Positions 821-21,599 are shown, counted from the first letter of the stretch. The stretch is DNA of 28,370 nucleotides from a bacterium (GCA_020061125.1 JAGUYV010000196.1:1-28370); one strand, 5' to 3'. Program-made: numbers and translations. The notes: generated by a model from the sequence alone, not told the origin.

Positions 821-1816
821 CTATTCCGCGGGCAGATAATGCTCCAGATTCGCGCGGTAGAAGTCGAAAGTCTTGCGCAGGCCGTCTTCGAACGCCGTCG
901 AGGGCGACCAGCCCAGCACGGTTTGCGCTTTGGAGATATCGTACGCGAAATCGCCGACCTCGATTTTTTTGTACTCGGGCGGCCAGGGTACAAGCTCGTA
1001 CTCGCCCTGCCCGGCGATTTCAATGAGCGTTTTTACCATGTCCAGGAAACGGATCTGCGTGGTTGCGCCGATGTTGAAGACCTGGCCTAGGGCGTCTTGC
1101 TTCATGCCCGCGAGCAGGAACGCCTCGATGAAATCGTCCGCGAAGGTGTAGTCGCGCAATTGCGCGCCGTCTCCGAAAATCTTGATTTTCTGGTTGCGCA
1201 GGATCAGTCCTACAAACCAGTTCAGAATGCCGAACTTGGGATGCTCGATCTGTGCGCGGGGGCCGTAGCCGTTGCTGCAGCGCAACACCGTGATAGGGAT
1301 GCCGTGGGCGCGGTGATAGATCATGTGGTAGGCCTCGCCCGCGTACTTGTTCACGCCGTAGATGTCCGTGGCGTTGGGGCGCACGGCCTCGGTCACGGGC
1401 ACGGTTACGGGTGCGCCGTAGATAGCGCGGGTGGAGGCGTACACCACGCGCGCTTCGGGATTGTGTTTGCGCACGGTTTCGAGGAACACCATGTTGCCGC
1501 GGCAGTTGATGTCAATGTCCAGAAAAGGGTCGGTCATGGAATCCGTGTGGCTGGTCTGGCCGGCGATGTGGAAGATGGTCTGCTTGTCCGCGACCATGCG
1601 CGCCATGGCGTGCTCGTCGCGGATGTCGCAGAGGTTCACTTGCACGCTGCCGCGAATTTCCTCGATGTTGCGCCAGTTGGCGCCGTGGCCCGGAAGAAAC
1701 GCGTCCACGAGCGTGACCCTGGCGCCCAGCCTGTCCAGCCGCAGCGCCAGGTTGCTGCCCAGAAAGCCCAGCCCGCCGGTGATGAGCACATTGCGATCCT
1801 TGTAGAATTTCTCCAT
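821..1816 (-). CDS. NAD-dependent epimerase/dehydratase (extended SDR family)
   Basis: A 331-aa extended short-chain dehydrogenase/reductase that most likely modifies a nucleotide-activated sugar (UDP-glucose 4-epimerase, CDP-paratose epimerase or UDP-glucuronate decarboxylase type). The Rossmann NAD motif GGLGFLG is at residues 14-20, with an acidic ribose-binding Asp38. The catalytic set is visible as the Ser/Thr of YASTRAIYG (about 126-134) and Y153-xxx-K157 in YGVNK. The C-terminal half (NGYGPR, the DYTFADDF segment) is the usual sugar-nucleotide part. The start at 1816 is chosen because GGAGGAA lies 11 bases upstream; an open frame continues further upstream but has no such support. The exact substrate is not readable from sequence. 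A glycosyltransferase at the far right of the window is compatible with surface-polysaccharide metabolism but is not linked by operon. Confidence 0.9.
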   Translation of the reverse strand: MEKFYKDRNVLITGGLGFLGSNLALRLDRLGARVTLVDAFLPGHGANWRNIEEIRGSVQVNLCDIRDEHAMARMVADKQTIFHIAGQTSHTDSMTDPFLDIDINCRGNMVFLETVRKHNPEARVVYASTRAIYGAPVTVPVTEAVRPNATDIYGVNKYAGEAYHMIYHRAHGIPITVLRCSNGYGPRAQIEHPKFGILNWFVGLILRNQKIKIFGDGAQLRDYTFADDFIEAFLLAGMKQDALGQVFNIGATTQIRFLDMVKTLIEIAGQGEYELVPWPPEYKKIEVGDFAYDISKAQTVLGWSPSTAFEDGLRKTFDFYRANLEHYLPAE

Positions 1817-10248: not shown

Positions 10249-10444
10249 GGAAGTGCAAAAGGATAAGAAACCCTGCTGCGTGCGTGATGTCATGCATTGC
10301 TGAGCCAACGTTTACGAACAGGGAGTCCACATCCTGCGCTTGACCCGCAGGCCCCCTCGAGGGGAAGCGGCGATTCCTGGGCGGACACCCACCTGTCAGA
10401 GACAGGTTCACGAGAATCATGGCACACGGCCTGGCGGGGTTTTT
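10249..10444 (+). ncRNA. ssrS: Probable 6S RNA
   Basis: About 195 bases lie between the promoter and a T-run (10440-10444), the usual 6S length. The ends can pair into a long interrupted closing stem (CCCTGCTGCGTGCG... with ...CACACGGCCTGGCGGGG), which also serves as terminator. Next to it the 5' side of the central bubble reads GCTGAGCCAACGTTTAC, close to E. coli CUGAGCCGAUAUUUCAU. Internal hairpins follow: CCTGCG/CGCAGG, CCCCTCGAGGGG, and ACCTGTC/GACAGGT in the 3' bubble strand, matching E. coli's small 3' hairpin in the CACCUUG region. 6S RNA mimics an open promoter and sequesters sigma-70 RNA polymerase in stationary phase. The assignment is from recalled consensus and hand folding, not a covariance search. 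Confidence 0.7.
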
Positions 10445-11431: not shown

Positions 11432-11911
11432 ATGAAGATAGACACGCAGGGAGACACCATCAAGATTTATGATTTCAACGCCGAGGAATGTTACCGCATC
11501 GCCCGAAGGCTGGAGAACGAAAGCCTCGAACTTTATCAGGGCGTCAAGGCCGCAATTAAAGATGCGGACATCGCCGCCGCGCTCGACATCCTGATCGTCG
11601 AGGAGTTGTGCCACCTGGCGTATTGCGAAAAGGCGCTTATTGACATGGGTGTGGAGGATATTAATGCCGAGCACCTGGTGGAGGTCGTGGACACGGGCGT
11701 GGTGACCCCGCTCGCGCAGGCGGACATCGAGCGCGTGCTGTGCAACCGCGAGGAAGCGCTCAAGCTGGGCGTAGCCCTCGAAAAGCGCGCCATCGCATTC
11801 TACGAATCCATCCTCGCGGAAACCAGCAACGAGCAGGGCCGCATCGCGCTCGGCAACATCATCGAGCAGGAGCGCGGCCACCGCGCCAGGCTTCAGGCCC
11901 TGATTTCGTAA
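11432..11911 (+). CDS. Ferritin-like / rubrerythrin-type diiron protein without rubredoxin domain
   Basis: A 159-aa four-helix protein with the ferritin-like ligand pattern: Glu30 in helix 1, E58-xx-H61 (EELCHL) in helix 2, a glutamate in helix 3 (EKRAIAFYE, 117-125), and E147-xx-H150 (EQERGH) in helix 4. This suits a rubrerythrin-like peroxide-scavenging or iron-handling role in an anaerobe. No C-terminal CxxC rubredoxin module is present, so electrons would have to come from another protein. GGAGG lies ten bases before the ATG at 11432. The adjacency to a thioredoxin-like gene is suggestive of redox defence but is not proof. Confidence 0.8.
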   Translation: MKIDTQGDTIKIYDFNAEECYRIARRLENESLELYQGVKAAIKDADIAAALDILIVEELCHLAYCEKALIDMGVEDINAEHLVEVVDTGVVTPLAQADIERVLCNREEALKLGVALEKRAIAFYESILAETSNEQGRIALGNIIEQERGHRARLQALIS

Positions 11912-12094: not shown

Positions 12095-12110
12095 TGGCAG
12101 GGAAATTGCA
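12095..12110 (+). promoter_or_regulatory. Sigma-54 (RpoN) promoter, module 1
   Basis: TGGCAGG-GAAA-TTGCA: the -24 GG (12096-12097) and -12 GC (12108-12109) are separated by exactly ten bases. It lies 40 bases before the start codon of the small membrane protein. An equivalent promoter precedes the paralogous gene at 18279. No enhancer-binding activator gene is in the window. Confidence 0.72.
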
Positions 12111-12149
12111 TTTTCATGGGCCAGCAAGGCGATATGGAGGTGCGATGAC

Positions 12150-12509
12150 ATGAACACAAAATCCGGGCGCGAACAAATCGAAACCCCTGTGGGAAGCAAT
12201 GCGCCGCTCACGACGCGCACAAGAAAACCGCTCCCTTCTCCCAAACAAAAAACATTGCGCACGCTCGGCTTCATGATCGGCATTGTGACGATGACCATGC
12301 TGCTTCTCATGGGCTTTCAGCAACCCGCGGCCACATCCATGGAACAGGCCATGGCCGCGCCCGCGCCGGGCGCCGAGTCCGCCATGTGGCTCAACTCCAT
12401 GTCCGACTATCTCTTCATTATCGCGCTCCCTCTGGTTCTTGCCATTTTCGGCTCGCAGATCTTTCTTCTCAAGCAAATCAGTTCCCGCATCGGCCGCAAG
12501 GCCAGGTGA
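12150..12509 (+). CDS. Small two-helix membrane protein A (module 1)
   Basis: 119 aa, no family recognised. Layout: a basic cytoplasmic N-terminus (about 1-38), membrane segment 1 (about 39-58, FMIGIVTMTMLLLMGF), an Ala/Pro-rich outer loop of about 25 residues, membrane segment 2 (about 86-106, DYLFIIALPLVLAIF) and a short basic tail LKQISSRIGRK. GGAGGT precedes the ATG at 12150. The second half is clearly paralogous to the protein at 18279-18650: 17 identities over 29 residues from DYLF to RI. Both genes sit between a sigma-54 promoter and a PAS histidine-kinase gene, so a role in signalling to or from the kinase, or in membrane placement, is inferred. There is no lipobox and no obvious ligand-binding motif. 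Confidence 0.75.
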   Translation: MNTKSGREQIETPVGSNAPLTTRTRKPLPSPKQKTLRTLGFMIGIVTMTMLLLMGFQQPAATSMEQAMAAPAPGAESAMWLNSMSDYLFIIALPLVLAIFGSQIFLLKQISSRIGRKAR

Positions 12510-12554
12510 CATACGCAAGGCGTCCGGCAAGCTCCGATCTTCATCTATTGCAAG

Positions 12555-12592
12555 AATGCGACAGTGTAGCGGCAACGCTGCACTTGCGCATT
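12555..12592 (+). promoter_or_regulatory. Stable hairpin with GNRA tetraloop between small protein A and kinase
   Basis: AATGCG / CGCATT outer stem, a two-by-two internal loop, then AGTGTAGCG / CGCTGCACT capped by GCAA. No T-tract follows, so it is not a simple terminator. It could stabilise or process the mRNA and separate expression of the small protein from the kinase. The rest of the gap (12593-12824) shows nothing I can name. Confidence 0.45.
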
Positions 12593-12824
12593 GTGATCGG
12601 AATTCTCATGTATCGGGACTCGCGGCGGATTATTCCCGGCAATAAAGCATTTTTTGCGCCATTATGCGAGTTGCGGAAAATGTGTTGTCGTTTTGACCGG
12701 GCGCAAAATCGGCATGGTCCGGAAATTGAACGGAACTTTGTTACTGGCGCGCCGCGTGGATTGTCGCGCGGTTGCGAACGAATCAAACACCAGTTTTCGC
12801 CAAACCGGGCCAAGAAACAGGGGT

Positions 12825-14114
12825 ATGGGGGCCTCGCAAGTGACATCGGAAATTGCAGACAACGAAACGCACATGACGCCAGAACAGATGCGCGCGCGCA
12901 TTGCGGAGCTTGAAGCTGCTGTCCGGGAGCTAGAGTCCGCGCAGGCGCATGAACGCGGCCTGGCCGACGGCGCGGAGCTGCGCACCGGGCAGCTCGAAAT
13001 GGCCAACTCGAATCTGCGCATGGAAATTGCCATGAACCGGCGCCCCGCCGGCGAGTTCCATGTGCAATGGCGCAATCTTCTGGCCGTGCTGGACAACTTC
13101 ACGGAAATTCTTTATGTTTCCGATCCGAGAACCCACGAGATCATTTTCGTGAACCGCGCATTCTGCAAGCAGCTTGGCGGCGACCCCGTGGGCGGCAAGT
13201 GCTTCGAGCAGTTCCAGGGTTTGGATGAACCCTGTCCCTTCTGCAACAACGAAACGCTTCTCCAAACCCGACGCCCCTGTATCTGGGAGCACTACAATCC
13301 CAGACTGAACCGGCATTTCATGATCAATGATCAGTTGATCGTATGGCCCGACGGGCGCGAGGTGCGTTTCGAGCTGGCCATTGACATTACACAACAGAAG
13401 CTGGCTGAAATCGAGCAGTCACGCCTTATGGCCGAACTCGAACGATCGAACAGAGAGCTGGAGCGGTTCGCGTATGTGGCTTCGCACGACTTGCAGGAGC
13501 CGCTGCGCATGGTGGCCAGCTACACGCAACTGCTCGAGCGGCGCTATGCGGACAAGCTGGACGAGGACGCTCGGGACTTCATTCAATTCGCTGTGGACGG
13601 CGCCGCGCGGCTTCAGAGGCTCATAAATGACCTTCTGGCGTACTCGCGCATCGGCAACCGGCGCGCCGCGTTGCGGAGCATGGACCCGCACGAAGCCCTG
13701 GGCGCGGCGCTGGCCAATCTTCAGGCCGCCATCCAGGAGTCAGGCGCGGTGATCAGCACAACCGAACTGCCCCTCGTGACCGCGGACCCCACGCAAATCA
13801 CGCAATTGTTCCAGAACCTGATCGGCAACGCTATCAAGTTCCGCGGCCCCTTGCGGCCGACCGTGCATGTCTCCGCGGAAATCCGCGGCGGCATGGCCGA
13901 GTTCTCGGTGCGCGACAACGGCATCGGCATAGACCCGCAGTACGAGGACCGGGTCTTCGAGATCTTCCAGCGTTTGCACTCCCGGTTCGAGTATCCGGGC
14001 ACGGGCATGGGGCTGGCCATTTGCAAACGCATCGTGGAGCGCCACGGAGGCGCCATCCGCGTGGAACCTTCCGAAGGCGGCGGCGCCGCCTTTATCTTTA
14101 CTCTGCCACTGTGA
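12825..14114 (+). CDS. PAS-domain sensor histidine kinase (module 1)
   Basis: A 429-aa cytoplasmic kinase with no membrane segment. Order: a coiled coil (about 16-75), a PAS domain (about 82-190) with Cys126 in GKCFEQF and C137-PF-C140, a linker helix, HisKA with phospho-acceptor His221 in [11 protein letters not shown], and an HATPase with NLIGNAIKF (N box), DNGIGID (G1), EIFQRLH (F box) and GTGMGLAIC (G2). The HDLQEPLR type is the one found in phytochrome-like kinases that pair with Rcp1-type receivers; such a receiver follows 13 bases downstream. The start is uncertain: the ATG at 12825 has AGGGG upstream, while the frame is open back to 12654 without support. The PAS cysteines might bind a metal or cofactor. 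Confidence 0.88.
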
Positions 14115-14127
14115 AAAGGAGGCCCGC

Positions 14128-14586
14128 ATGGATTTTTTCAATCAGGCCAAACCCATCGAAATCCTGCTCGTGGAAGACAACCCCGGCGACGCACGCCTGG
14201 CCAGGGAAGCGCTCAAGGACAGCAAGGTCAAAAACAATCTGGCCATCGTGGACGACGGCGTCAAGGCGCTCGAATACCTGCGCAAGCAGGGCGAATTCGC
14301 CAGTGCGCCTTCGCCCGATCTCATCCTTCTGGATCTGAATCTTCCCAGAAAGGACGGCCGCGAAGTGCTCGCGGAAATCAAGGGCGACGGCATGCTCAAG
14401 CGCATTCCCGTGGTGGTTCTCACCACATCGCGCGCGGAGCAGGATGTGCTCAAATCCTACAATCTGCACGCAAACTGCTACATCACCAAGCCCATTGATC
14501 TGGGCCAGTTCATCACGGTAGTCAAATCCATCGAAGATTTCTGGCTGACCATCGTCAAGCTGCCGCCGTGCGAAGAATGCCCGTGA
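14128..14586 (+). CDS. Single-domain response regulator (Rcp1/CheY-like)
   Basis: A 152-aa stand-alone receiver. Acidic pocket Glu16-Asp17 ([12 protein letters not shown]), phospho-acceptor Asp69 ([11 protein letters not shown]), Thr99/Thr100 and Lys121 (ITKPID) are all present. The sequence is of the Rcp1 group, the normal partner of HDLQEPLR kinases. AAAGGAGG precedes the ATG at 14128. There is no output domain, so it would act by protein contact or hand the phosphate on; the next gene encodes a hybrid kinase with two more receivers, so a phosphorelay is possible. The C-terminus ends in a CEECP tail of unknown meaning. Confidence 0.93.
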
Positions 14587-14619
14587 CCCGCGGCGCAACC
14601 ATTGCCAACAGAGGACCCC

Positions 14620-16515
14620 ATGAGCGACATCTTTTTCGAAATCCTTCTCATCGAAGACAACCCCGGCGACGAGCGCCTGATCCGGGAGTTGCTGTCCGAG
14701 ACCCGGTATCTGCGCGCGGACATCACGGCCGCGCCCACTCTGCGAGATGCCCTGGACCTGGTGTCCGCACGGCGGTTCGATGTCATCCTGCTGGATCTGA
14801 ATCTCCCGGATTCCGGCGGCATGGGCACGGTGATACAGGCGCACGCGGCCGCCCCCGACATTCCGATCCTTGTGCTCACCGGCCTGGACGACGACGCCAT
14901 GGGCGCCGAAGCCGTGCGCCGCGGCGCACAGGACTACCTGGTGAAGCGCAACCTGGATCCGGATGCGCTCGCACGGCTTATCTTCTATGCGCATGAGAGA
15001 CACAAGTCAAAACGCGATCTTATGCGCAGCGAGTTCCGGCTGCGCCGCCTCATCCAGAGCAACGCCGACGGCATGCTGGTGCTGGACTCGCGCGGCGAGG
15101 TGCTTTTCGCCAACATCGCCGCGGAATTCCTGCTTGGAAAATCCAGCGACAAGCTGCTGAACAGCCGGTTCCCGGTTCCCATGTCCGGAGAGCGCTTTGC
15201 CGAGATCGTGGTCCAGGATTCCAACGGGCAGGACGCGCACATCGAAATGAGCGTGGGCGTGGATTTCGAGTGGGAAGGCAAGAGCGCGGTCATCGTGTCT
15301 CTGCGTGATGTGTCCGAGCGCATCTCCGCCATGCAGGAGCGCAAGCGCCTGGAAATGCAGCTTCAGCAGGCGCAGAAAATGGAGGCCATAGGCATGCTGG
15401 CGGGCGGCGTGGCCCACGACTTCAACAACATGCTCACCGCCATCAACGCCAACGCGCAGCTCGCCCTGCGCAACCAGAAAAGCGGCAAGCCCGTGGACAT
15501 GGAACTCAAGGAAATTCTGGCGGCCGCGGACCGCGCGGCCGACCTCACGAAAAAGCTGCTTACATTCGCGCGCAAGGAAAAGCTCAACGCCCGTCCCGCG
15601 TCTCTTGCGGACATCGCCGACAGCGTGGCCAATCTCCTTGAGCGCACCATTTCCAAAAAGATCAAAATCACCCGCAGCTACGCCCCGGACGCGCCTGCGG
15701 TCAAGGCCGACGCCAACCAGATGCACCAGGCCATCTTGAATATCTGCACCAACGCCTGCGACGCCATGCCCGCCGGCGGTGAACTGGGCGTCGCAATAGA
15801 GATTCAAACCCTGGATGCCGAGGCTTGCGCAAGAAAAGGACTGCGCACGCCCGGCGAGTTCGTCGCGCTCCACATCACCGACTCCGGCGCGGGCATCGCC
15901 CCGCAGATGCTGGACAAGGTTTTCGAGCCGTTCTTCACAACCAAGGGCGCGTCCAAGGGAACGGGCCTCGGGCTTGCCGTGACCCTGGGCATCGTGCAGA
16001 ACCACGAGGGAGCGATCGAGGTGTCGAGCGAGCAGGGGCGGGGAACCAGGTTTTCCATGTTTCTGCCCGCGTCCGCGGATGCGCCGGACGCCCTCGCCGC
16101 GCAGCCCCGGCGGGAAGACCTACTGCAGACCGGATCCGAAACCATTCTCATTGTGGACGATGAAGTCTCGGTGCTGGAGTCCATATCCCGTCTGCTTGAG
16201 GCGCTCGAATATAAGGTGATTACTGCATCGTCGGGACGCGAGGGCGTGCAGGCCTTTATTGACAACATGAAAAGCATTAATCTTGTGCTGCTGGATTTCA
16301 TGATGCCGGAGATGGACGGCCGGGATGTGTACAATGCCATCAGCAAGCTGCGGGATGATGTGCCCGTGCTGCTGTGCACGGGCTACAGCACGGACGGCGC
16401 GGCCGGTGAACTGCTCCAGCGCGGGGTGCGCGAGGTTATTGCCAAGCCGTTCAATCTGCCCGAGCTGTCGCGCGCCATCCGCCGCGCGCTGGACTCGCGC
16501 CCGGTCCCAGCATGA
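14620..16515 (+). CDS. Hybrid histidine kinase: REC-PAS-HisKA-HATPase-REC
   Basis: A 631-aa soluble hybrid. Receiver 1 (about 5-120) has Glu12-Asp13 and Asp59 ([12 protein letters not shown]). A PAS domain (about 135-235) follows. HisKA has His266 in GGVAHDFNNML, the HDFNN type. The HATPase shows NICTNACDAMPAGG, DSGAGIAPQ and GTGLGLAV. Receiver 2 (about 507-625) has Asp559 (LLDFMMPEMDG) and Lys609 (AKPFNLPEL). An input receiver in front of the PAS suggests it is switched by an upstream kinase, most simply the HK encoded at 12825. GAGG precedes the ATG at 14620, 33 bases after the previous stop. The gene converges with the patatin gene, 12 bases away. No DNA-binding output is encoded in the operon. 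Confidence 0.92.
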   Translation: MSDIFFEILLIEDNPGDERLIRELLSETRYLRADITAAPTLRDALDLVSARRFDVILLDLNLPDSGGMGTVIQAHAAAPDIPILVLTGLDDDAMGAEAVRRGAQDYLVKRNLDPDALARLIFYAHERHKSKRDLMRSEFRLRRLIQSNADGMLVLDSRGEVLFANIAAEFLLGKSSDKLLNSRFPVPMSGERFAEIVVQDSNGQDAHIEMSVGVDFEWEGKSAVIVSLRDVSERISAMQERKRLEMQLQQAQKMEAIGMLAGGVAHDFNNMLTAINANAQLALRNQKSGKPVDMELKEILAAADRAADLTKKLLTFARKEKLNARPASLADIADSVANLLERTISKKIKITRSYAPDAPAVKADANQMHQAILNICTNACDAMPAGGELGVAIEIQTLDAEACARKGLRTPGEFVALHITDSGAGIAPQMLDKVFEPFFTTKGASKGTGLGLAVTLGIVQNHEGAIEVSSEQGRGTRFSMFLPASADAPDALAAQPRREDLLQTGSETILIVDDEVSVLESISRLLEALEYKVITASSGREGVQAFIDNMKSINLVLLDFMMPEMDGRDVYNAISKLRDDVPVLLCTGYSTDGAAGELLQRGVREVIAKPFNLPELSRAIRRALDSRPVPA

Positions 16516-16527
16516 CGGTCATGGTTC

Positions 16528-17883
16528 CTATTGCAGTTTGGGGAAGGTTTCCCGCGCAATCTGCCTGTAGCGTTCGTACCGGCTCTTCTTGAACTTGAAC
16601 CGGTTCAGGTTCTTGGCTTCCAGGATTCCCACGGTCTTGTATTCCTCGAGTTTTTCGAACCCGTGCAGGGGCATGATTTCATTGGTGATGGAGTAGCCGA
16701 TGTTGATCAGCTCGCGCGTGGAGTAGGGCAGGATGTTGAAGTGGTCCACGAAGAAAATTTCATTGGGCGACGGGATGTAGATGTACTTGCGGTCCTTGTT
16801 GAAGTTGAAGAACCCTGCGAGGTCGGCCACCATTTCCTCGTGCGTTTCCTTGGACAATTTGTATTTGTTTCGGAACTGGGGCGAGCGCACGAACGCGAAA
16901 AGCTCTTCCTTCTGCTCGCGCAGTTTCGCGGGTTCCCGGATCTTCTGGTACATGGCCGTGTTCATGGCCTGGAGAACGAGCGAGTACAGCCCGAGTTCGG
17001 TGATGGACCCCATGTTCTCGTCGCGCACATAGGGCGTGAAGGTGTGGGACACGAAGATGAGGTCCGCACCCATGTCCGCGGCCACATGCACGGACAGGCA
17101 CTGCTTGACTTCGCCGTCGTAGTAAATATGGCCGTCAATGGACACGGGTTTGAACAGCCCCGGCACGCAGCACGAGGCATGCACCGCGCGGCTGATGGGC
17201 GCGGTGTTCAGATACCGGTCCCGGTAGTAGGTGTCTTCGTCGGTGCCGATCCAGTCGGACATGTCCTTGCCGAAGATGGCCTTGCGCGGGTAGTCAATCT
17301 CCGTGGCGATCACGCTCAAGTCCACCTGCTTGCGGATGTAAAGTTCCTCGAAGTCGTTGATGGGCAGCACATCTTCGAGATATTTTTCCAGGCGTTCGAG
17401 GGTGAACAGGCCCATGACGGGCATGATCTCGCGCATGATGGCCTCGATGCCCGTGCCCGGTCCGTACTTGTTCTGCATGTAGGGGAGTTTGGCCAGGCGC
17501 TTGAGGTATTTCATCATGATGCGCGGCGGGGGCAGGCGCAGGGAAAAGATGTCGGCGTAGGAGAAGCCCGTGAGGTCGCCGTGCATGCGGCGGTCCGGGC
17601 TGGTGAAATAGCTGGACAGGGATTTGGCTTCGAGGCGGCTTTCGATGGTTTCCTCGTCGAAGTCGTTGACCATGAGGGCGCCGAAAATGGAGCCGCCGCT
17701 GCTGCCGATGATGTGCTCGATGAACACGCGCTCGGGGTTGCGCTGTGCGCGCGGCGCGTTGGCGATCTCGATGCCGTACTCCTTGAGCGCGAGCGTGACC
17801 CCGATGTGGTAGAACATGGCCTTGGCCGCGCCCCCGCTGGCCACGAACGCTATCCGGTTGTATTGCTTGAGCTTATCCAGCAT
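16528..17883 (-). CDS. Patatin-like phospholipase/acyl hydrolase
   Basis: A 451-aa serine hydrolase of the patatin family, expected to cleave acyl esters of phospholipids or neutral lipids. The oxyanion-hole region is SGGAAKAMFYHIG (16-28). The nucleophile elbow is GSSGG at 60-64 (Ser62), and the catalytic aspartate is Asp256 in YYDGEV, where most relatives have DG[AG]. No signal peptide or membrane segment is seen, so it is probably cytoplasmic or peripheral. The C-terminal 150 residues are unlike the core domain and carry many charged residues (ERYRQIARETF end). The ATG at 17883 follows GGGGGA by eight bases; an in-frame ATG at 17916 is an alternative. It lies between two sensory modules on the opposite strand, so a functional link is only conjecture. 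Confidence 0.88.
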   Translation of the reverse strand: MLDKLKQYNRIAFVASGGAAKAMFYHIGVTLALKEYGIEIANAPRAQRNPERVFIEHIIGSSGGSIFGALMVNDFDEETIESRLEAKSLSSYFTSPDRRMHGDLTGFSYADIFSLRLPPPRIMMKYLKRLAKLPYMQNKYGPGTGIEAIMREIMPVMGLFTLERLEKYLEDVLPINDFEELYIRKQVDLSVIATEIDYPRKAIFGKDMSDWIGTDEDTYYRDRYLNTAPISRAVHASCCVPGLFKPVSIDGHIYYDGEVKQCLSVHVAADMGADLIFVSHTFTPYVRDENMGSITELGLYSLVLQAMNTAMYQKIREPAKLREQKEELFAFVRSPQFRNKYKLSKETHEEMVADLAGFFNFNKDRKYIYIPSPNEIFFVDHFNILPYSTRELINIGYSITNEIMPLHGFEKLEEYKTVGILEAKNLNRFKFKKSRYERYRQIARETFPKLQ

Positions 17884-18110
17884 GAATGCATCCCCCGCGC
17901 GCGGTACTGCTTCCATTATATGAAATATCGGGCCGCGGCGCGCGGCCGCGCGGGAAAAAGCAACGGCCGCGCACGGCGATTCCATTGGCCGGAAAAATCG
18001 TTTGCCGCCATTGTCTGCACACGGGATTTCGAATGGTCGCCTGCGGCGGTGTTGAAAAAGCCAAGCGGCTGTAAAAAGCGGACAGGAGGGCTGTTGAAAA
18101 AGCGCGGGGG

Positions 18111-18133
18111 GCGAAAAAATCCGGTTTTTTCGC
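18111..18133. terminator. Bidirectional hairpin in the patatin/module-2 divergent gap
   Basis: GCGAAAAAA / TTTTTTCGC form a perfect 9-bp stem around a five-base loop. It could shield module 2 from read-through. The remaining gap 17884-18110 holds GTTGAAAAAG repeats (at 18050 and 18089-18102) and no gene. Confidence 0.4.
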
Positions 18134-18160
18134 AGCCTTGCGCCAACACGAGCCAACTTT

Positions 18161-18190
18161 TTGACTTGCGAAAGTTATTTAGCATAAATT
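18161..18190 (+). promoter_or_regulatory. Possible sigma-70 promoter upstream of module 2
   Basis: TTGACT, 18-base spacer, TAAATT. It lies just upstream of the sigma-54 promoter, so basal and inducible transcription could coexist. Weaker evidence than the sigma-54 match. Confidence 0.35.
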
Positions 18191-18219
18191 TTTCGCCCCT
18201 CTCGGTTTCCAACGCACTC

Positions 18220-18235
18220 TGGCACGAGTCTTGCA
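18220..18235 (+). promoter_or_regulatory. Sigma-54 (RpoN) promoter, module 2
   Basis: TGGCACG-AGTC-TTGCA is a full consensus match, with -24 GG at 18221-18222 and -12 GC at 18233-18234 and exactly ten bases between. It lies 44 bases before the ATG of the small membrane protein at 18279, the same position as in module 1. Confidence 0.85.
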
Positions 18236-18278
18236 TAACACTGCGTCAAAACCTTAAGTTGCGGGGGAGTTGATTATC

Positions 18279-18650
18279 ATGACAAACGCCATCGAGTGGA
18301 AAGCAAACGCAAACCGGGAATTCAGCGCCGGCATGCGCACCGTGGCCTTGGAGCGGTGCCGCATCATCGGGCTGGACAGCAAGCAGAGAAAACGGAAAAA
18401 AACCACAGTTACGGTGGTCATGACCATGACACTGGCCGTGGTTCTGCTGGGCCTTTTCTCGTTTTCAGGCCCCGCGCTGTCCGCGCAAACCGTCTCGGCG
18501 CAGATTCCGGCGCAGACCCAGAATCAGAAACCCGCGGCCCTCAACGAGCATGCGGATTTCCTGTTCATCCTGGCCGTGCCCCTGGGTTTCGCGGCCCTGC
18601 TTTCACAGTGTGTTACACTGAAGCAAATTTCCGACAGGATCAGGAAGTGA
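18279..18650 (+). CDS. Small two-helix membrane protein B (module 2), paralogue of A
   Basis: 123 aa, no family recognised. Basic N-terminus (about 1-42), membrane segment 1 (about 43-62, with VVMTMTLAVVLLG), a Gln/Ala-rich outer loop, membrane segment 2 (about 92-112, DFLFILAVPLGFAAL) and basic tail LKQISDRIRK. The tail and second helix match protein A at 12150-12509; the N-terminal parts and loops differ. GGGGAG lies nine bases before the ATG. An isoform choice (TTG at 18270) would add three residues. A signal-peptide reading (ALSA-Q after segment 1) is possible, but the long basic N-terminus and the clear second helix argue for a two-pass protein. The sensor kinase gene follows 144 bases downstream. 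Confidence 0.75.
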   Translation: MTNAIEWKANANREFSAGMRTVALERCRIIGLDSKQRKRKKTTVTVVMTMTLAVVLLGLFSFSGPALSAQTVSAQIPAQTQNQKPAALNEHADFLFILAVPLGFAALLSQCVTLKQISDRIRK

Positions 18651-18680
18651 GCCGTAAAAAATAAGACAGGGGAGCAATTT

Positions 18681-18733
18681 TCACGGCGTAGCGGGTATAA
18701 TAAAAGCCAACATAAAAATCCCCGACGCCGTGA
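18681..18733 (+). promoter_or_regulatory. Palindrome enclosing a TATAAT box between small protein B and kinase
   Basis: TCACGGCGT and CGGG on the left pair with CCCG and ACGCCGTGA on the right (13 bp with a two-base bulge), enclosing a 25-base AT-rich loop that contains TATAAT at 18696-18701. It may be an mRNA hairpin, an operator over an internal promoter, or both. No good -35 box is visible. Confidence 0.45.
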
Positions 18734-18794
18734 TTCGCAACACAAGCCACGGCTGCCGCCTGCGGGCGGGGGCATTCACACAGGGGAGCGGGGC

Positions 18795-21599
18795 ATGGAC
18801 AGCAAGCAAGCCGCGGAATGCGGCCCGAGCAATCTTTTCGACACCATCGGCGTGCCCGTTGTCATCATCGGGCGTGATTTCACGGTCGAGCAAATCAACC
18901 AAGCTGCGGCGAAAGCCCTGGGCCTGGCCCCGGAGCAGGCTGCGGGCAAGAAGTGCCACGAGATATTTCATGGCACGGGCGCGCCCATGTCCGAATGCCC
19001 CATGCGCCTGATGCTTGGCGGCATGCCCGTGGAAAAGAGCGAAGCCGTGCTGGACATGCTCGGCGGCACATATTTGGTCACCTGTTCTCCAGAGTTGGAC
19101 GAGCAGGGCAATCTCTTGCGCATCATCCACACTCTGGTTGACATTTCCCGGCAAACGGAATCCGAAACCCAGGCGCGCACTGCGCTTCGGGAATCGCGGC
19201 GGCGCGAGCTTGAGGTGTCGTCCCTGCTTGAAGGCGCGCGCGCCGTGCTGGACACCACAAGTTTCGAGCAGGCTGCGCGCAGTCTGTTCGACTGCTGCCG
19301 CAGCGTGACCGGCGCGCAGAGCGGCTATGTGGCGCTGCTTTCCGCGGACGGACACGAGAACGAAGTGCTGTTCCTGGAATCCGGGGGGCTGCCGTGCACC
19401 GTGGATTCCTCACTGCCCATGCCCATCCGCGGTCTGCGCGCCGTGGCATATGAAACGCGCCGTCCCGCTTATGACAACAATTTCGCCAACAGCAAGTGGA
19501 TGGCGTTCATGCCCGATGGGCATGTGCAACTGCACAATGTGCTGTTCGCTCCCATTATGCACGGGGGCGAGGCCGTGGGCCTGATCGGGCTGGCCAACAA
19601 GCCGGGCGATTTCACGGATCACGACGCGCGCATTGCGGGTGCGTTCGCCGAGCTTGCCGCCATTTCCCTGCTCAATTCCCAGACCCGCGACCAGCTCGAA
19701 CACGAACGCGTGCGCGCGCAGCAATATTTCAACCTGGCGGGCGTGGCGTTCGTGATTCTGGACGCCAACGAAACCGTGGTCATGGCCAACGCCGCCGCGG
19801 GCAGGCTGCTCGAATGCAGCGAACAGGACATCGCGGGAAAGAACTGGTTCGACAATTTCATTCCTGAAAACGAACGCGAGCGAACGCGCGCGGTGTACCG
19901 GGATCTGATGCTGTCGGATTCCAGCCTTGTTCAGGATTTTGAAAACGCTGTGCTCACGAAAACGAACAGGGAGCGGATCGTGTCCTGGCGCAACGCCGTG
20001 CTCAAGGACGACCAGGGCGTGATTGTGGGCGTTCTGGCCTCGGGTGAGGATGTCACGGACCTGCGCCGCGCCATGCGCTCCGCGGACGAAGCCGCGCAGA
20101 AGTACAAAAAGCTTTTTGACGCATCCAACGAAGCGTTGCTGATACTGGACGAGAATTTCAAAGTCGTTGAAGCAAATCCCGCGGCAGAGGAACTTTACGG
20201 CTATGACCGCAAAGAACTTATCGGCATGCACCCGAGGGATTTCACCGCCGAGGAACAAAACACGGAAACAGGTCTCAAGCAGTTGGCGGACGAAAAAACC
20301 ATAATGGTGCCCCGGCGCAAACAGAAGCGCAAGCACGGCGGCATCATTTACACAAGTTTTTACAGCCAGGCTTTCGACTTCGGAAATCAATCCTATTATT
20401 TGTCCCAGATCCGGGACATCACCGAGCATGTGCTGGCCGAGGAACAGGGCAAGAGGCTGGAGCAGCAGCTATTCCAGTTGCAGAAGCTCGACACCGTGGG
20501 GCGGCTGGCCGGGGGCATCGCGCACGACTTCAACAACATGCTCACCGTGATCATGGCCAGCGCGGCGCTCATGAAGCTCAAGATGGAAAAAGAATCCCCG
20601 TTCCAGGAACAGGTGGCTTCAATCATCCAGGCCGTGGAGCGGTCCAAAGATCTCACCATGAAGCTGCTGTCGTTTGCGCGCAGGGAAAAGATCAATGTGC
20701 GGGATGTGTGCCTGGGCGAGATCCTGGGCAGCCTCAAGGGCATGATCGAGCGGGGTATACCCAAGAACATCCGCGTGGCGCTGGATGCGCCCGGAGAGCA
20801 GGTGATCAATGCGGACGCCGTGCAAATCCAGCAGGCGCTGATGAACATCTGCACAAACGCCGCGGACTCCATGCCGGGTGGAGGCACGATCACCATCGCA
20901 ACAGAGGCCGTGGATTACGGAACCGTGCTGTGCGCCACCTGCGGCAAGGTGTTCGACGGCCCCTATTGCGTGATTTCAGTGAGCGACACCGGAAGCGGCA
21001 TTGACAAAGAAATCATAGACCGGGTGTGCGAGCCGTTTTTCACCACCAAAGCCGCGGGCAAGAACGCGGGCCTGGGCCTGTCCGTGGCCCACGGCATCGT
21101 CTCCAACCACCGCGGGCATCTGCACATCTACAGCGAACCGGGCAAGGGCGCGTGCGTCAAGGTGTATCTGCCCCTGGCCGCAACACCGGACAAGGAGCGC
21201 AAACCCGAACCGGCCACCACGGAACTCAAGGGAACGGAAACCATTCTGATCGTGGATGACGAACCCGCGATTCTGTCCATGGCCGGAAGAATCATTCAGG
21301 AATATGGGTACCGCGCGTTGTTGGCCGCGTCGGGCGTCGAGGCCGTGGAGATCATGCACAGGGAAAAGCAGTCCGTGGCGCTTGTGGTTCTGGACATGAT
21401 CATGCCCGGAATGGACGGGAGGCAGACCTTCGAGGCGCTGAAGACGGTCCATCCGGGCGTGAAAATATTGATTTCTTCGGGATACAGCATTGACGGCGAC
21501 GCGCGGGCGCTGTTGAAGAAAGGCGCCGCCGGATTCGTGCAAAAACCCTACAATTTCGCGGATTTGCTTAAGGCCATGCGCGAGGCACTGGACGCGTGA
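18795..21599 (+). CDS. Hybrid histidine kinase: PAS-GAF-PAS-PAS-HisKA-HATPase-REC (module 2)
   Basis: A 934-aa soluble hybrid sensor. PAS1 (about 12-120) has a Cys/His motif: Cys54 and His59 in KKCHEIFHG, then Cys68-Pro. GAF is at about 145-295, PAS2 about 305-425, PAS3 about 435-545. HisKA has His577 in GGIAHDFNNML. The HATPase shows NICTNAADSMPGGG, DTGSGID and NAGLGLSVAHG, with a cysteine insert LCATCGKVFDGPYC (712-725). The terminal receiver (about 815-930) has Asp867 (VLDMIMPGMDG) and Lys917 (QKPYN). AGGGGAG precedes the ATG at 18795. With four input domains and no membrane helix, it probably integrates cytoplasmic redox, gas or metabolite signals. Its kinase core resembles that of the hybrid at 14620, suggesting common origin. 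Confidence 0.93.
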   Translation: MDSKQAAECGPSNLFDTIGVPVVIIGRDFTVEQINQAAAKALGLAPEQAAGKKCHEIFHGTGAPMSECPMRLMLGGMPVEKSEAVLDMLGGTYLVTCSPELDEQGNLLRIIHTLVDISRQTESETQARTALRESRRRELEVSSLLEGARAVLDTTSFEQAARSLFDCCRSVTGAQSGYVALLSADGHENEVLFLESGGLPCTVDSSLPMPIRGLRAVAYETRRPAYDNNFANSKWMAFMPDGHVQLHNVLFAPIMHGGEAVGLIGLANKPGDFTDHDARIAGAFAELAAISLLNSQTRDQLEHERVRAQQYFNLAGVAFVILDANETVVMANAAAGRLLECSEQDIAGKNWFDNFIPENERERTRAVYRDLMLSDSSLVQDFENAVLTKTNRERIVSWRNAVLKDDQGVIVGVLASGEDVTDLRRAMRSADEAAQKYKKLFDASNEALLILDENFKVVEANPAAEELYGYDRKELIGMHPRDFTAEEQNTETGLKQLADEKTIMVPRRKQKRKHGGIIYTSFYSQAFDFGNQSYYLSQIRDITEHVLAEEQGKRLEQQLFQLQKLDTVGRLAGGIAHDFNNMLTVIMASAALMKLKMEKESPFQEQVASIIQAVERSKDLTMKLLSFARREKINVRDVCLGEILGSLKGMIERGIPKNIRVALDAPGEQVINADAVQIQQALMNICTNAADSMPGGGTITIATEAVDYGTVLCATCGKVFDGPYCVISVSDTGSGIDKEIIDRVCEPFFTTKAAGKNAGLGLSVAHGIVSNHRGHLHIYSEPGKGACVKVYLPLAATPDKERKPEPATTELKGTETILIVDDEPAILSMAGRIIQEYGYRALLAASGVEAVEIMHREKQSVALVVLDMIMPGMDGRQTFEALKTVHPGVKILISSGYSIDGDARALLKKGAAGFVQKPYNFADLLKAMREALDA

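Follow-up and report, generated by a model that had tools for sequence, protein, structure and literature searches.

The two small membrane proteins encoded in the window (the whole 28,370-nucleotide stretch of DNA analysed, contig C71 of G000) belong to a membrane-hairpin family that is, judging from sequence, lineage-specific, previously unnamed and restricted to a single order of uncultured bacteria. The reading that we tentatively favour, as a real possibility somewhat short of probable, is that this sigma-54-controlled family belongs to a fibre/signalling regulon and acts from the membrane on soluble PAS hybrid kinases, as their partner or in feedback. The small gene's membership of a regulon that includes a putative surface fibre is well supported, and the action of its product as partner or feedback element of the kinases, which we infer, is the weaker step. 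G000 is a 4.1-Mb draft genome in 513 contigs (78.8% complete), and its order comprises only six other genomes, G001–G006, with G003, G004 and G006 making up genus g3, and G001, G005 and g3 being the other three lineages that carry the small gene. The nearest relatives beyond these six lie in other parts of the domain, indicating that the lineage is small and uncultured.

The preliminary description had pointed to an order that recurs in the window, in which a sigma-54 promoter is followed by a gene for a small membrane protein and then by one or more PAS kinase genes, and both modules were confirmed in place (Table 1). The small proteins are paralogous (BLASTP E 2e-10, 37% over 75 aa) and each carries two hydrophobic helices, and a hydropathy scan gave no convincing membrane helix in kinases P0002, P0004 and P0005 (at most one borderline segment, in P0005), all of which agrees with what had been claimed. 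The kinases of module 1 are likewise as described, but a single-domain response regulator also lies inside the module, making it a trio of PAS kinase, response regulator and hybrid kinase. Since such trios are common, the kinase part of module 1 is unremarkable on its own.

Table 1 Features of the two modules, with positions counted from the first nucleotide of the window
Feature	Position	Strand	Remarks
Sigma-54 (-24/-12) promoter, small gene 1	12095..12110	+	TGGCAGGGAAATTGCA; 55 bp 5′ of ATG; score 15.4; relatives share position
Small two-helix membrane protein 1, P0007, 119 aa	12150..12509	+	Paralogous to copy 2
Gap hairpin, module 1, no terminator	12545..12599	+	z -3.78 on trimmed stretch; T-run absent
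Cytoplasmic PAS histidine kinase P0002	12840..14114	+	HisKA 7e-13, HATPase 2e-28
Single-domain response regulator P0003	14128..14586	+	Response_reg 2.6e-20
Hybrid kinase P0004	14620..16515	+	REC-PAS-HisKA-HATPase-REC
Patatin-like phospholipase gene, unrelated, between modules	16528-17883	-	
Sigma-54 (-24/-12) promoter, small gene 2	18220..18235	+	TGGCACGAGTCTTGCA; perfect consensus; 59 bp 5′ of ATG; score 18.2
Small two-helix membrane protein 2, P0008, 123 aa	18279..18650	+	Paralogous to copy 1
Gap hairpin, module 2, long loop, no terminator	18681..18733	+	z -3.64 on trimmed stretch
Cytoplasmic hybrid kinase P0005	18795..21599	+	PAS-GAF-PAS-PAS-HisKA-HATPase-REC

Homologues of the small proteins were sought by a protein search in G000, a profile search in the order and a promoter-first search, in which the DNA around every perfect -24/-12 consensus site in the seven genomes was fetched. 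Nine family members were aligned (A5), of which four are from G000, namely the two window genes with their promoters (W1 and W2, encoding P0007 and P0008), a copy on contig C238 and a weaker one on contig C389, the least certain member, and one each from G001, G003, G004, G005 and G006, so that the family occurs in six of the seven genomes of the order. The G005 protein is homologous to that of G001 (E 3e-9) and to those of g3 (E 5e-4), and the G000 members were joined to the G005/g3 group by profile comparison (P 1.4e-5, probability 80%, 24 columns). Across the nine members the initial Met and one aspartate and one proline at the start of helix 2 are invariant, and the family is, to judge from the alignment, diverging fast. 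A search of 386 genomes with the nine-member profile found no member outside the order of the window, the matches listed being the profile's own rows; searches of genome contigs gave nothing with P0007 alone and only G005's own record (JAKLIR010000034.1) with the A4 profile. A weak match of P0008 in G095 was rejected as a helix of a PilC-like protein.

The helices of P0007 span residues of about 38-56 and 88-106, and both window proteins have a basic N-terminal tail (net charge +6 in P0007 and +7 in P0008), a slightly acidic 31-residue loop and a basic C-terminal tail, from which an N-in/C-in hairpin is predicted by the positive-inside rule. An AlphaFold model built on an alignment of three sequences shows two long helices at pLDDT 60, too poor for fold matching, and a Foldseek search with it returned nothing. 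P0007 and P0008 match no family in Pfam or NCBIfam and no PDB family was matched by the small protein. The phage-shock proteins PspB/C/D/G are also small inner-membrane proteins made from sigma-54 promoters, but the window family has no Psp match in Pfam or NCBIfam and its neighbours differ; Psp-type and other known small-protein families were rejected for want of a match in these libraries.

The sites that had been read as RpoN promoters of the window genes are the two best-scoring -24/-12 sites in the window, 55 and 59 bp 5′ of the ATG, and about 0.3% (for the 12095 site) and 0.2% (for the 18220 site) of random 110-nt stretches score as high. Strong sites precede six of the nine members (W1, W2, G003, G004, G005 and G006), a seventh site in G001 is degenerate, with the GG kept and the GC changed to GA, and all seven stand 55-59 bp before the ATG, so that the proposed check of homologues for GG-N10-GC came out in favour of the promoters. 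No -24/-12 site was found for the C238 and C389 copies. Pooled over the seven genomes, the exact consensus is no commoner than a reversed control (17 and 18 sites, respectively; in G000 alone, 7 and 1), so that the evidence for the promoters is a fixed position conserved in relatives; the window sequence by itself is not proof of them. Of the 17 perfect sites, four are located 57-59 bp 5′ of a gene of the family, and RpoN is encoded in all seven genomes (PF04963 over cut-off). No activator site common to W1 and W2 was found, and W2 gave no strong activator site.

The homologue search outlined in the preliminary description thus gave a divided result, in that the family and its sigma-54 site recur but the adjacency to kinases does not. 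The next gene on the same strand is a kinase gene at two of the nine loci, both in the window, which does not support a conserved module of small gene then PAS kinase; as the other seven loci have no downstream kinase, the placing of a kinase gene immediately 3′ of the small gene is peculiar to this window. The small gene of G001 is followed by a terminator (z -2.7) and a convergent glycosidase-like gene, and that of G005 by a terminator (z -3.67) and a convergent gene for an NtrC-type regulator. In g3 a promoter of its own precedes the small gene and a terminator-like hairpin with a T-run follows it, and a 1545-aa hybrid kinase is encoded about 400 bp upstream. There is no kinase beside the C238 copy, which has a radical-SAM gene upstream and a convergent membrane protein gene downstream, or beside the C389 copy, which has a gene for a Tex-like S1 protein upstream and a convergent STAS gene downstream (family member L113:969-1370 (+), STAS gene 1381-1773 (-)). 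Two-component genes are still nearby in g3 (the hybrid kinase), G005 (the NtrC-type regulator) and G001 (the orthologue of P0005, at the same locus). Between the small gene and the fibre operon, G003 (L139:8670-11564 (+)) and G006 (L140:6634-9528 (+)) encode a hybrid kinase for which two helices are predicted, and this kinase is absent from that place in G004.

These neighbourhoods bear on the alternative that the arrangement is a true operon module of this genome only, with the small protein as a dedicated membrane sensor or tether of the kinase encoded by the next gene. Such a module would fit two paralogous small genes that are each followed by kinase genes, with no terminator found between small gene and kinase in either module, and soluble kinases adjoining a membrane protein. 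The hairpins described in the gaps are present in both, but their stems are mutually unrelated and have no T-run, so that they were rejected as terminators and as a common RNA element, and the whole gaps fold no better than shuffles (z -1.15 in module 1 and -0.85 in module 2). The P0002 reading frame is open from 12654 and its start is uncertain; translation probably starts near 12840, at a GTG with a Shine-Dalgarno-like GGGGG, which would make the module-1 gap about 330 bp and not 145. A gap of that size argues against an operon, as do the lack of the layout at all seven other loci and the distant relationship of the two kinase sets, whose HK cores are about 39% identical and are not sisters in the tree, and we consider an operon module of this kind improbable.

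The kinases themselves were then compared across the order. The G001 orthologue of P0005 is 52% identical to it over residues 11-551 and is its sister in the tree with support of 83/89; it flanks the fibre/small-gene locus there, which makes a functional tie to signalling still plausible; neither a small gene nor a sigma-54 site was found directly upstream of this orthologue. The best match of P0004 in G003, G004 and G006 is the kinase adjoining the small gene in those genomes, in the HK core only. A single clade of small-gene-linked kinases was rejected, as the tree groups only the module-2 kinase and its G001 counterpart. Hybrid kinases abound in these genomes (in G000, P0005 has 20 matches at E <= 1e-60), so some adjacency of small gene and kinase is to be expected, and a rough binomial estimate for kinase adjacency at three of seven independent loci is about 1%. 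The tie of small protein to hybrid kinase has support for a single kinase type, in two lineages, and elsewhere amounts to mere adjacency.

Linkage of the small gene to the putative fibre locus is steadier than its linkage to kinases. This locus encodes secreted pilin-like proteins and a chaperone-like secreted protein (A6), together with a STAS protein in G001 and G005 and, in G005 and g3, also a minor secreted protein and a ~955-aa barrel-like protein. In each of the five other carriers (G001, G003, G004, G005 and G006) about 1.8-5.1 kb separate the small gene from the gene for the fibre chaperone. The small gene is outside the fibre operon in every genome, and there are at least three arrangements, with order and orientation differing among G001, G005 and g3, which indicates that the proximity is more than one frozen arrangement. 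In G002 (97% complete), where the profile search found no small gene, no fibre chaperone was found either. In G000 the pilin-STAS-chaperone-minor operon is on C334, a separate contig from all four small genes; it runs at L137:79-2361 (-), is cut by the contig end and has a weak TGGCATGCATCTTGTC site and a GATACAGTGTAACA palindrome upstream. A STAS gene, as seen beside the C389 copy, is also within the fibre operons of G000, G001 and G005.

Small gene and fibre operon are alike in promoter type. In G005 and g3 the fibre operon is preceded by a -24/-12 site of its own, and the small gene and pilin gene of G001 carry near-identical degenerate sites, TGGCAAGAATATTGAT and TGGCATGAATATTGAT (GG-N10-GA). 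The G001 sites lie in the small-gene/pilin intergenic region at L112:3400 (-) and L112:3687 (+), and the pair gives the impression of a joint change of the -12 element in the two genes. A palindrome, TTACA-N-TGTAA, is located 110-129 nt 5′ of the promoters of the fibre operons and of the small gene in G005 and may be an activator (enhancer) site; it is only suggestive, since it was derived from some of the same sequences.

The locus resembles chaperone-usher loci in its secreted pilin-like proteins, periplasmic chaperone-like protein and large barrel-like protein. Unlike those loci, it matches no known chaperone, usher or pilin family: the pilin-like and chaperone-like proteins had no match in Pfam, NCBIfam or PDB, and neither PapD-like chaperone nor PapC-like usher families were matched in the locus in the same libraries. 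A single-sequence model of the fibre chaperone reached pLDDT 38, too poor to use. The term fibre is therefore taken from secretion signals, size, order and sequence character.

Given this linkage, the small protein might instead be an assembly or anchoring part of the fibre, an inner-membrane accessory of a chaperone-type secretion locus, with the window kinases as bystanders. Its co-occurrence with the fibre locus is more constant than with kinases, and in G001, G005 and g3 the small gene forms a transcription unit by itself, closed by a terminator, as would suit such a part. On the other hand, the small gene is never inside the fibre operon, the known chaperone-usher pathway needs no inner-membrane hairpin, and the window copies stand beside kinases and away from the fibre operon of G000. 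A fibre part is judged somewhat unlikely, and a kinase-partner role is slightly favoured over fibre assembly because of this position of the window copies. The more specific proposal that the hairpin family is a membrane partner of soluble PAS hybrid kinases controlling a new chaperone-type surface fibre is held to be unlikely.

Under the favoured reading of a kinase partner in a fibre/signalling regulon, an NtrC-type activator would jointly induce the small gene and the fibre operon, and the small protein would insert in the inner membrane as an N-in/C-in hairpin whose long basic cytoplasmic helix could contact, or feed back on, the soluble PAS hybrid kinases of the regulon. In G000 two copies have ended up immediately 5′ of such kinases, so that small gene and kinase could be co-expressed by read-through. 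Modulation of sensor kinases by small membrane proteins is known in only a few cases, mostly in enterics, and the family would, if this is correct, be a testable non-enteric example, sigma-54-controlled and tied to signalling genes and an unclassified fibre locus. It would also help to name a surface-fibre system missed by present family libraries, and, should the kinase link fail, what remained would be a protein family still without a name but with a clear regulon. A precedent for a small membrane protein acting on a sensor kinase is MgrB-PhoQ (PMC2789325), and the window family perhaps works in a similar way without belonging to the MgrB type. The likeness is that of a small membrane protein which may be made within a two-component regulon, its action on a kinase being proposed here; MgrB, however, has 47 aa and inhibits a transmembrane kinase, whereas the window family has about 120-140 aa, two helices and soluble kinases, and no sequence relation to MgrB was shown.

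PEP-CTERM proteins are encoded mostly in single-gene units with sigma-54 sites, under control of a kinase and an NtrC-type regulator (PrsK/PrsR) (PMC1569441). The small protein could by analogy with this PEP-CTERM/EpsH system be located at the surface or in the envelope and end in a sorting-type tail of short motif, membrane helix and basic end. The members have a common C-terminal plan, with the conserved D and P near the start of helix 2 followed by the helix and a basic tail, and the own sigma-54 promoter and the NtrC-type neighbour in G005 parallel that published description. However, alignment A5 has no Pro-Glu-Pro before the C-terminal helix in any of the nine members, a basic tail of 28-60 residues precedes the first hydrophobic segment, unlike a normal signal peptide, and the proteins are two-helix members of one homologous family confined to one order rather than many unrelated proteins with a common tail. 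A sorting-tail protein is thus quite improbable. Elsewhere in the window, a 6S RNA is present at 10267-10444 (+) (RF00013, 77 bits), and a rubrerythrin-like/ferritin-like protein with a weak match to EncB (encapsulin cargo) is encoded at 11432-11911 (+), just 5′ of module 1.
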